Origin: Actinomycetes bacterium
Lineage (GTDB): Bacteria > Actinomycetota > Actinomycetes > Streptosporangiales > Streptosporangiaceae
Direction of reading: 5' to 3'
DNA length: 64,000 nucleotides
NCBI GenBank assembly: GCA_021793235.1
Contig: JAJYTD010000001.1
Span: 1-64,000 of the forward strand
Below are positions 45,714 to 49,219 of this stretch, in pieces (the first letter of the stretch is position 1; each line of letters begins with the position of its first letter). Below the pieces are notes generated by a model. That model was not told where the DNA came from. It saw nothing but the letters and a program-made list of their open reading frames with translations, and ran no database searches. The position numbers and the translations under genes are program-made.

Positions 45714-45777
45714 CGCCGATCTTGACTTTGTGCACGTGTGAATGTGTTCGCTTACGTGCACAAAGTCAAGATCGGCG
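45714..45777. repeat. perfect 24-bp inverted repeat between convergent genes
   Basis: 24 bases (45714-45737) are repeated exactly in inverse orientation (45754-45777) around a 16-base loop. The arms contain GATCTTGACTTTGTGCACGT. The hairpin follows the DedA-like gene, and its right arm overlaps the last codons and stop of the acetyltransferase gene. It could be a bidirectional terminator, but there is no T-run. It resembles the hairpin at 176-233. Confidence 0.85.
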
Positions 45778-46344
45778 CGAAGCAGCATCACCGCACACCA
45801 CGGCCGATGGCCCGGGGAAGTCCTCCGGGACGGCATCCATCAGCAACTCATCGACAGGCTTCCCCAGCCAGTAGCCGGCCTTGCGCAGGCGCCCCGCATG
45901 GCGGAAACCCGCTCTACCATAGGCGGCGATTCCTGCGGTGTTGGGTTCCAGGACCTTGAGCCAGACCATGCGCAACGCGGCCAGGTGGAAAGCCCAGTCC
46001 AGGGTGAGGCGGGAGGCCTCGGCCGCATATCCCTTACCGCGCTCCTGCGGGGCCAGGACCATGACGAACTCGGCAGTGTGCACGAACCTGTTGATCTGTA
46101 GCGTTGTTATCCCGATCGGGACCATGCCGTCCAGACGTACCACCTCGAACTGCGGGTAGCTCTGGTTGCCGCGCTGGCGTTCCCACCCGGCAGCGCGGGT
46201 CTCCCAGGACTGGGGTGCTTGATTGCCGTACCCCAGGATGGTGCCCGGGTCGTTCTCCCAGGCGTGGTACTCGGGCAGCATCTCCCGGCGAGGCATCCCC
46301 AACGCGAGAATCTGACCGAACAGCAGGACGTGCGGCTCACTCAA
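45766..46344 (-). CDS. GNAT acetyltransferase of the lasso peptide cluster
   Basis: 192 residues from a TTG with GGAGAA six bases upstream, overlapping the stop of the preceding gene by eight bases, so the two are coupled. The GNAT core is present: FVMVLAPQERGKGYAAEASRL contains the acetyl-CoA loop (QERGKGYA). The C-terminal part LKVLEPNTAGIAAYGRAGF is typical too. In albusnodin-type clusters an acetyltransferase modifies a Lys of the lasso peptide. The candidate core peptide upstream has Lys at position 10. Substrate assignment is inference. Confidence 0.85.
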   Translation of the reverse strand: MSEPHVLLFGQILALGMPRREMLPEYHAWENDPGTILGYGNQAPQSWETRAAGWERQRGNQSYPQFEVVRLDGMVPIGITTLQINRFVHTAEFVMVLAPQERGKGYAAEASRLTLDWAFHLAALRMVWLKVLEPNTAGIAAYGRAGFRHAGRLRKAGYWLGKPVDELLMDAVPEDFPGPSAVVCGDAASRRS

Positions 46345-47482
46345 TGCCGTTCTCCAGGTTCTTACCCGGCAGCGCCGGGCCATCGGTTGTGTAGATAGGG
46401 GTGTAGAAGCTGATCGTGGGATCCTCTCCCACCGGGCGTCCACTGCTGTCCGTGATCCAGGCGTGCAGTCGTACCGGATCGGTAGCAACCCCGTGGCGCC
46501 ACTCGGCCCGCCGCCCGACCAGGGCGAGCAGCACCGCGACCGCCACGGACTGCTCCAGGCACGCCCAGCGGGCCGGGAGTAAGGCGGACATCCTCCTGAC
46601 AGCGTTCACCGCGGCGTGGGTGCGGGCGTCCTCGGCAGGTGTCAATCGGCGTCCGATGCAGGCCAGCCAGACCATCCGGGCGAACCTTCTGCGTCGGGGG
46701 CCGCACACCAGAGCGGTGACGGTCATCGCCATAGCAGGCAGCGAGGCCAGGCGCCACCCGATCCCGGCCTCGCTCGGGCGGGTGAGGGCAGCGTTCATCT
46801 CTCCAGTCCCCCAGGAGACACCGGCGCTCTCGTGCTGGACGACGAGTAGCCTGCCACGGTCGTCAGGTAGGGAGGGCCGCAGTTCGGTACGGCCGGTTCG
46901 GTAGTCGACGAGCACACAGGCGTGCTCGGTGAGCACCGCGACCGTGGACGACCGCGTCATACCGCGGCCTGCCGGGGAGCGTCCCATCGCGGTGGCGGGG
47001 TATTGCGTACGGCGTGCAGCCACATCTGGGTGCCCAACGTGGTAAGCAGGTGCGCCCATGGAACCCGGCACGAAACAGATTCGGTCTATGCCGGATCCGG
47101 TCAGGGCAGCCAGCGCACGCGAGCTGGAAGCCCACACCACCAAGCCCTCATTGGTGCGGGTGGTGTACACCGGGCACGCGCCGGAGATGTCGGTGATGAC
47201 CTCCACCGCCCTCCCCGCGTGGCGAACAGAGATGAAAGATCCGGTCCAGTCTGCGGTCGCGGCGGCAAGGTCAGGGTCATTAGCCGCGGCGGCCAACTCT
47301 GGACCACTCGCCGAGCAGGGACCAATAACGGCCAGGCGAGAGCCGGAATTGGAGAAGGTGCGGATGTATTGGTGCTGCCATGCGCCCACCGTCCATAGCG
47401 GAGGGTCGGTCCACAGCAGTCTGGCGTCTGCTGGGACAGGGGAGCGCGGCGCTCTCGGGGCGCAGCCGCCGATCCATCTCAT
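46337..47482 (-). CDS. fused lasso-type protein: cyclase N-terminal domain plus B1/B2-like leader processing part
   Basis: 381 residues. ATG with a full AGGAGGT upstream. Residues 1-130 (MRWIGGCAPR..., DWTGSFISVRHAG, TDISGACPVYTT, VWASSSRALAAL) match the N-terminal glutaminase-like domain of lasso macrolactam cyclases of the albusnodin/ikarugamycin type. Residues 180-200 (VAVLTEHACVLVDYRTGR) look like a remnant of a B1 (RRE) domain. Residues 290-365 are a B2 transglutaminase-like peptidase with ACLEQSVAVAVLL (Cys308), RLHAWITD (His340) and GRPVGED. The ATP-pyrophosphatase half of the cyclase, with its SGGxDS loop, is absent. The protein therefore looks like the result of an internal deletion, unless the cyclase is supplied elsewhere. 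Confidence 0.75.
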   Translation of the reverse strand: MRWIGGCAPRAPRSPVPADARLLWTDPPLWTVGAWQHQYIRTFSNSGSRLAVIGPCSASGPELAAAANDPDLAAATADWTGSFISVRHAGRAVEVITDISGACPVYTTRTNEGLVVWASSSRALAALTGSGIDRICFVPGSMGAPAYHVGHPDVAARRTQYPATAMGRSPAGRGMTRSSTVAVLTEHACVLVDYRTGRTELRPSLPDDRGRLLVVQHESAGVSWGTGEMNAALTRPSEAGIGWRLASLPAMAMTVTALVCGPRRRRFARMVWLACIGRRLTPAEDARTHAAVNAVRRMSALLPARWACLEQSVAVAVLLALVGRRAEWRHGVATDPVRLHAWITDSSGRPVGEDPTISFYTPIYTTDGPALPGKNLENGIE

Positions 47483-47545
47483 AAGACCTCCTGGAATCCC
47501 CGGGATGGCGGTCCAAGAATGGGCCGCCATCCCGGGGAGAACGGA

Positions 47546-47659
47546 TCAGTCGTAGGGCGACTGCTTGTTCTCGACGCTCTGGTCGTCGTTACCTTGAGTC
47601 AGCGCGGCCGCGTCACCGAGTTCGATCACGGCAGGGACTTCTTCGGGCTGCTCTTCCAT
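47546..47659 (-). CDS. lasso peptide precursor, albusnodin-like
   Basis: 37 residues, too short for routine gene calling. ATG with AAGGGG four bases upstream. The leader begins MEEQPEEVP and ends DAAALTQ, with Thr at the penultimate position as in lasso leaders. The predicted core is GNDDQSVENKQSPYD: Gly1 can form a macrolactam with Glu8, and Lys10 is the position reported, as I recall, to be acetylated in albusnodin. The gene ends 63 bases before the processing gene on the same strand. The AT-richer region upstream holds an inverted repeat. Confidence 0.8.
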   Translation of the reverse strand: MEEQPEEVPAVIELGDAAALTQGNDDQSVENKQSPYD

Positions 47660-47825: not shown

Positions 47826-48665
47826 TCAGCCGCCAACGTTCTCCGCGGCGCGCTTGAGTGTGGCGCGGGCCTCACCGTTGAACCGGGCTCCGGATGAGGC
47901 CATCTGGAAAACGTGGAGGTACTGTTCGACCTCACTCTGATGGGTCAGTGTCAGTTCAGCAGAAATCGTCTCAATAATTACTGATGCATCATCTTGTATC
48001 CAGAACCCGTGAAGGGGGAGGTAAGGTGGCGAGGCGTCGAAGGGAATGATTCCAAGAGAAACGTTGGGAAGGCCGGAAGCGGTTATCAACCGGTCGATCT
48101 GCCCCATCATCACGCCCCGGTCACCACGCCGGTGACATACGGCCGCCTCACTGACGAGGAAGCGGAACCGCTTATCTCGCCGGTAGAGGACACCCTGGCG
48201 TCTCATCCGCTGTTCGACCGCGTCCCCGACGCTGGAGGCGGACCCGTTTTTGCGGTTGACCGACTCCAAGACGGCGTGCGCGTAGCCGGGTGTCTGGAGT
48301 AACCCTGGGATGATCATCGGCTCGAAGACACGGAAGAGACGAACGCGCTCCTCGTCGGAGGCCAGGCGTGATTGGATGCCGTCCAACCCGCCATGGAGCT
48401 GGCGCTTCCACTCGACCCACATCGACTCCAGGGCATTGAGCCGGCTGATGAGGTCGGCGGCCGTACCAGTGTTGCCGCAGGCCTGCGCCCAGGCGGTGAC
48501 CTCAGCCACGCTGGGAGTCTGGCGGCCTGTTTCGATCTTGGAGACCTTCGGTTGGCTCCACGCCAGCCGCTCCGCGAGCTGTGTTCCGGTCAGCCCTGCT
48601 GAGTTCCGTAGCTCGCGGAGCCGTCTCCCCAGATCGTGGCGGGCGCGATCAATGCTGTAGGTCAC
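47826..48665 (-). CDS. XRE family regulator with DUF5753
   Basis: 279 residues from a GTG overlapping the stop of the previous gene (GTGA). The N-terminal HTH (about 12-65: LGRRLRELRNSAGLTGTQLAERLAWSQPKVSKIETG) is followed by the long DUF5753 domain with FEPMIIPGLLQTPGYA and GVMMGQIDRLI. Such WhiJ-like regulators are abundant in actinomycetes near small partner genes. It probably controls its own cassette and perhaps the lasso genes downstream. Confidence 0.93.
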   Translation of the reverse strand: MTYSIDRARHDLGRRLRELRNSAGLTGTQLAERLAWSQPKVSKIETGRQTPSVAEVTAWAQACGNTGTAADLISRLNALESMWVEWKRQLHGGLDGIQSRLASDEERVRLFRVFEPMIIPGLLQTPGYAHAVLESVNRKNGSASSVGDAVEQRMRRQGVLYRRDKRFRFLVSEAAVCHRRGDRGVMMGQIDRLITASGLPNVSLGIIPFDASPPYLPLHGFWIQDDASVIIETISAELTLTHQSEVEQYLHVFQMASSGARFNGEARATLKRAAENVGG

Positions 48666-49219
48666 CTAGGTATTGAACCGTTTGCTCGTGTCAGGGTGTA
48701 GTCGCTGTGCTGGATGGCGTAGTGCAATGCGATGTCCCGCCACTGACAGTACTGTGCGATCGCAGTCGGGTCGTCGATCCTTTCGAGCTCGCGGGGCACG
48801 TCATCACCATCGAAGTGCAGGATGCAGGCCCACCGGCTGTCGAACAGCCAGAAGTCGATCTCGGGAAGCTGTTTCACCGCGGGATGGTGGCGGGGAAGCC
48901 ACCGTATGTCCTCACCCGCTTCAACGTTGAACCGTGTGACCGCGTGTTCCCAGGTGATGTAGTCGCTCAGCGGTTCCGAGATGATGCGGACCCGCTGCCA
49001 GATCTTGCCCTCCTGGCGGCATGCGGTGACGTTTTGGTGCCAGGGGGAGGTGCGGGCGTGGTCCTCCTTGCGCCCGAGGTCGCCGGTGGAGAGGAAATGC
49101 CGGATGGTTTCCTCCTCCTCAGCGACGTTGTAACGGTCGCGGACTTCGAGCTTCCAAGCGGTGTGCTCGAACTCGGTGAACTGCCGGTCGAACTCATCTT
49201 CGGTGAGGAGCCTGCGCAT
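48662..49219 (-). CDS. DUF6879-type protein
   Basis: 185 residues. MRRLLTEDEFDRQFTEFEHTAWKLEVRDRYN at the start and FDGDDVPRELERIDDP near the end match my memory of DUF6879 proteins that accompany XRE/DUF5753 regulators. Function unknown. It overlaps the regulator by GTGA and follows the 66-residue gene after 3 bases, so the three genes form one transcript. Confidence 0.8.
   Translation of the reverse strand: MRRLLTEDEFDRQFTEFEHTAWKLEVRDRYNVAEEEETIRHFLSTGDLGRKEDHARTSPWHQNVTACRQEGKIWQRVRIISEPLSDYITWEHAVTRFNVEAGEDIRWLPRHHPAVKQLPEIDFWLFDSRWACILHFDGDDVPRELERIDDPTAIAQYCQWRDIALHYAIQHSDYTLTRANGSIPR

Follow-up and report, generated by a model that had tools for sequence, protein, structure and literature searches.

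The window analysed here, 64,000 nucleotides of a Streptosporangiaceae genome (GenBank assembly GCA_021793235.1, contig JAJYTD010000001.1, positions 1 to 64,000), carries on its minus strand a lasso peptide precursor gene (A), two remnants of a cyclase gene (C), a leader peptidase gene (B) and an acetyltransferase gene (T) (Table 1). Precursor A occupies 47546-47659 of the minus strand, a strand that the earlier note had not given, and translates as MEEQPEEVPAVIELGDAAALTQGNDDQSVENKQSPYD followed by a stop; its ATG start is immediately preceded by the purine-rich stretch GAAAGGGG. The plus-strand frame of the same positions held nothing of interest by eye. A profile search matched A to NCBIfam NF033525 'albusnodin family lasso peptide' with 52.2 bits (E 5.8e-14), above the curated cut-off of 30 bits, and the residue pattern that was looked for, Thr at -2, Gly1 and an acidic residue with Lys at 8 and 10 (or at 9 and 11), is present in its 8/10 form. 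Judged by its sequence, the peptide is a genuine and typical albusnodin-family precursor, and the coordinates, core and Glu8/Lys10 numbering that the earlier note had assigned to an albusnodin-like peptide are borne out by the translation and the NF033525 match.

Table 1. Features of the locus, in window coordinates, from upstream to downstream on the minus strand; L039, L040 and L041 are orthologous Nocardiopsis loci.
Feature	Position	Strand	Evidence
DUF6879 protein, encoded upstream as in the orthologous clusters	48662..49219	-	Pfam; 67-71% identical in L039, L040, L041
XRE/DUF5753 regulator, encoded upstream as in the orthologous clusters	47826..48665	-	Pfam; 70-76% identical in L039, L040, L041
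Leader peptide of lasso precursor A, MEEQPEEVPAVIELGDAAALTQ, Thr at -2	47594..47659	-	Translation; NF033525 and lasso_leader_L3 matches; relatives
Core of lasso precursor A, GNDDQSVENKQSPYD: Gly1, Glu8, Lys10	47549..47593	-	Translation; conservation
Stop codon of precursor A	47546-47548	-	
Strong RNA hairpin in the gap from A to the cyclase remnant; stem of 15 bp and a further 3 bp inside	47497..47538	-	-47.1 kcal/mol over 73 nt, z -6.8
5' remnant of cyclase C, covering residues 1-136 of some 556	47072..47482	-	tblastn with L039 cyclase (47479-47072); NF033561 1-133 of 561
Cyclase C 3' remnant, residues 517-556 and original stop	46957..47079	-	tblastn with L039 cyclase (47079-46960); DNA read
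Leader peptidase B, RRE-like N-terminal part (label presumed from family knowledge, no model match) and B2 transglutaminase-like protease; complete when read from its own ATG	46337..46960	-	NF033537, PF13471; alignment
AlbT-like GNAT acetyltransferase T; its TTG start overlaps the last bases of B	45766..46344	-	PF13302, PF00583, matched with the longer ORF 45766-46488
Long inverted repeat running from the end of T to just beyond it, probable terminator	45714..45777	-	91-nt stretch -50.1 kcal/mol, z -8.8

Conservation of the core was followed in two sets of relatives. The first came from two overlapping genome searches, which held family members in 14 of 394 and 28 of 341 genomes; 36 rows were read, and after removal of a chance match (L034) and a different lasso core (L074) there remained 34 albusnodin-like cores, of which 28, the window included, had Glu8/Lys10 and six had Glu9/Lys11, the search pattern itself demanding acid-x-Lys. 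The second set was gathered through the cyclase and comprised 78 loci, 76 of them with a precursor; here the start of the core was set by T-x-G (with S or A allowed for T), a rule blind to residues 8 and 10. Acid8/Lys10 was found in 69 of these 76 cores and acid9/Lys11 in six, and the one misparsed core (L139) read Glu8/Lys10 by eye, which brought the former class to 70, one of them with Asp8. Relatives outside the 8/10 pattern had both the acid and the Lys moved by one position. Such acid9/Lys11 cores form a subgroup across the family (e.g. L032, L069-L073, L093, L156, L170 and L171), mostly of the GTSSRSG-EDKRYKY type with some G-S-K-rich cores, in which a nine-residue ring would form with the acid-x-Lys spacing unchanged. 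The cores nearest to that of the window were GSDDQSVESKQSPYD (L035, L064) and GSDDQSIESKQSPYD (L066, L067). Loss of Glu8 and Lys10 among homologues was the outcome that had been set beforehand as speaking against the earlier note, and both residues proved conserved. Its placing of the core start after ALTQ agrees with the T-x that precedes Gly in nearly all relatives read, and the conserved positions favour Gly1 and Glu8 as the predicted ring closers, with Lys10 just outside the ring. The note had also pointed out the C-terminal Asp as a departure from albusnodin; the difference is there, but it is no anomaly, since 14 of the 76 relatives end in Asp and 10 in Cys.

Four orthologous clusters were compared with the window, those of Nocardiopsis kunsanensis DSM 44524 (L039), N. 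algeriensis CECT 8712 (L040), N. alkaliphila YIM 80379 (L083) and Nocardiopsis sp. FIRDI 009 (L041). The gene order DUF6879-XRE-A-C-B-T is common to L039, L040 and L041, in which the cyclase has about 556-561 residues, and the precursor of the N. kunsanensis locus (L035/L039) lies in the same place and is 84% identical to that of the window. The hairpin between A and C, which probably serves to set expression of A above that of the downstream genes, a predicted function, has a weaker counterpart in L041; none was seen by eye in L039 and L040, where A and C overlap. The N. kunsanensis cluster carries a second GNAT gene directly after T (10749-11330 of L039), 52% identical to T.

The open reading frame that follows A (46337-47530, 397 residues) is not a cyclase: it matches positions 1-133 of the 561 of NF033561, the albusnodin/ikarugamycin cyclase model, and then the lasso B2 model. 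With the L039 cyclase as tblastn query, residues 1-136 and 517-556 were found adjoining, in frames -3 and -1 respectively, and residues 137-516, about 1.14 kb, are absent, a loss that takes in most of the ATP-dependent Asn-synthetase-type domain. By comparison, two full orthologous cyclases match the whole of NF033561 with 577.8 and 594.1 bits, and their Asn_synthase domain (PF00733) spans residues 216-536 in L040 and 192-536 in L039. No complete macrolactam cyclase, that is, NF033561 with an Asn_synthase domain, is therefore encoded in the window cluster. The joint C'-B frame is best taken as a product of chance, because the 5' remnant passes the old C terminus in a frame not its own and then continues in the frame of B; an open frame upstream of B is ordinary, extending more than 180 bases 5' of B in L039 and L040 also. 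A natural, functional C-B fusion was considered and set aside as first choice, since the remnants lie in different frames and B has its own start at the conserved overlap with the stop of C.

The remaining genes are undamaged, with no stops or frame shifts in A, B or T. Read from its own ATG, B is a leader peptidase that matches NF033537 with 80.1 bits against a cut-off of 33; its start at 46960 overlaps the old cyclase stop exactly as in three orthologues, and it retains the residues invariant among five aligned B proteins, including Cys134 and His166. The GNAT acetyltransferase T follows B directly, is 74-78% identical to three orthologues and has no internal damage. In a four-sequence comparison, a count and not a formal test, the amino acid changes private to the window numbered 1 in A, 7 in the C remnant, 3 in B and 7 in T, against 0-5, 3-22, 11-18 and 8-11 respectively in the other three sequences, so that A, B and T of the window display neither faster evolution nor an excess of private changes. 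That these genes are intact and have not evolved faster suggests that the deletion is most likely recent; by itself, the absence of excess changes would fit a recent deletion or continued constraint alike.

A census of cyclases covered 36 precursor-led loci with flanks read, five of 41 distinct rows (G175, G489, G504:C6:138444, G491:C128 and G497:C26) having been dropped, all below the family cut-off. A full single-frame cyclase was present in 28 of the 36 and absent from six, the window with its missing residues 137-516 among them. In the other five, the cyclase reached only to about residues 362-372 (L045, without B or T), carried a frame shift (L050 and L085), lacked its N-terminal part (L054, with a partial B and no T) or had a C-terminal part that was not found (L077, without B or T). 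Two loci were set aside: L086, with a frame-shifted cyclase cut by the contig end, and L087, in which the core is frame-shifted and neither C, B nor T lay within reach. Some of these frame shifts may be sequencing errors. A search of other genome contigs for the C'-B fusion, with the window protein as query, gave 24 stretches that matched the patterns and none that was confirmed, and this was a weak search, because a 60%-identical Nocardiopsis cyclase was missed as well. A literature search at listing level, with most subscription papers outside its scope, found no report of a cyclase-deleted albusnodin-type cluster.

A substitute for the lost enzyme was sought in the source assembly, a draft of 4,817,083 bases in 119 contigs that is 99.97% complete. 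A profile search of the whole 4.82 Mb gave no match to Asn_synthase (PF00733), the cyclase model matched the 5' remnant alone, and a full orthologous cyclase as query returned the 5' remnant and one marginal match (E 0.024, residues 4-103 only). As the domain is absent from the assembly, the known route would be unlikely to close the ring, and formation of a mature ring or lasso in the source organism is not supported. With no Asn_synthase domain in a genome of this completeness, asparagine synthesis in the organism presumably takes a different path. Contig C14 (L038), of 8.6 kb, holds at about 2138-2308 the relic of a second lasso B2 protease, covering model positions 126-184 of 220, and no cyclase was found on it; the fragment indicates that another lasso locus probably once existed.

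In an intact cluster of this kind, family knowledge most likely assigns to T the acetylation of Lys10, to B the binding and then the removal of the leader, and to C the ATP-dependent activation of Glu8 and its joining to Gly1 around the tail. The window holds such a cluster, orthologous to the intact Nocardiopsis clusters; we think it likely that it was inactivated when about 1.14 kb was lost from within C, and that it most likely yields no lasso peptide. This deletion would have taken out almost the whole Asn-synthetase-type catalytic domain and put the two remnants out of frame, the 5' one running by chance into B, and the products would be at most a cleaved or acetylated linear peptide. An alternative, namely that misassembly created the deletion and that the strain has an intact cyclase and makes the acetylated lasso peptide, is unlikely: the draft state of the assembly and the lack of further decay in A, B, T and the C remnants would be in keeping with it, but the missing 1.14 kb lies on no other contig, the window has no Ns, the junction falls inside a contig of 524,755 bases, and no obvious repeat that could explain a false join was seen by eye at the junction in the tblastn alignment.

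The locus might also work without ring closure, with Lys10 acetylated by T and the leader cut by B, either by itself or within the C'-B fusion, to release a linear acetyl-lysine peptide; or T might persist because it shields the cell from albusnodin-like peptides that neighbours make. The intact A, B and T with no increase in rate would agree with this, as would the accessible part of PMC8498205, in which AlbT is allowed to act before folding and acetylation is proposed as self-resistance, and that of PMC13352647, which gives Lys acetylation as self-resistance for triculamin and lariocidin. A recent deletion, however, accounts for the same intactness, the passage of the fusion frame across the old C terminus out of frame bears the mark of accident, and the same form was found in no second genome in searches that were weak, and we regard this reading as highly improbable. 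It is very unlikely, too, that albusnodin-type clusters repeatedly lose the cyclase with the precursor staying readable, and that A, B and T persist here under selection without ring closure, the outcome being either a linear acetyl-lysine peptide or a strain that makes no product and retains the acetyltransferase for immunity. Closure of the ring in trans by a cyclase encoded elsewhere would find some support in the B2-like fragment of contig C14, but that fragment is a short relic on a contig without a cyclase, for which reason the candidate was rejected, and with no Asn_synthase domain in the assembly we hold a trans-acting enzyme to be extremely improbable.

Inactivation by deletion therefore remains the reading that we prefer, and the cluster is probably dead or dying; as assembled, it does not stand as a working pathway, because the ring-forming enzyme is gone. 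For the same reason the window locus is ill suited as a source of the product, and the intact Nocardiopsis orthologues, whose cores are almost the same, would serve better. For genome mining, it illustrates that a cluster may present a convincing lasso precursor, followed by a plausible 'biosynthetic' ORF, and yet have no ring-closing enzyme. Should A, B and T nonetheless be shown to work in the absence of C, nature would have provided a test of whether folding comes after AlbT-type acetylation, a question described as unclear in the accessible part of PMC8498205.

The ring of albusnodin is closed between Gly1 and Glu8, and the core GQGGGQSEDKRRAYNC, found among the second set of relatives, is one that we take to be albusnodin's own. 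The window shares with albusnodin of Streptomyces albus and with NF033525 the Thr at -2, Gly1, Glu8, Lys10 and a Tyr near the C terminus, as well as the A-C-B-T order and the GNAT acetyltransferase; it differs in a core that ends in Asp and in a cyclase without its catalytic domain. As far as the accessible portion of PMC9266682 goes, albusnodin bears its acetyl group on Lys10, a highly conserved residue, isolated albusnodin is without the C-terminal Cys, and no product was seen without albT; a BLAST search with AlbT gave 43 similar clusters in the accessible part of PMC8498205, where the mechanism and timing of acetylation are called unclear. The four Nocardiopsis clusters resemble the window in their A-C-B-T order and similar cores, with DUF6879 and XRE genes upstream shown for L039, L040 and L041, and L039 and L083 have a core, GSDDQSVESKQSPYD, near-identical to that of the window. 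In all four, unlike the window, the cyclase is complete, in a single frame and about 556 residues long. The orthologue of Nocardiopsis sp. ATB16-24 (L085/L099), with the core GSDDQSIESKQSPYD, is similar in that its cyclase gene is broken in the assembly, and differs in the kind of damage, a frame shift at about residue 440 by which no large part is lost.
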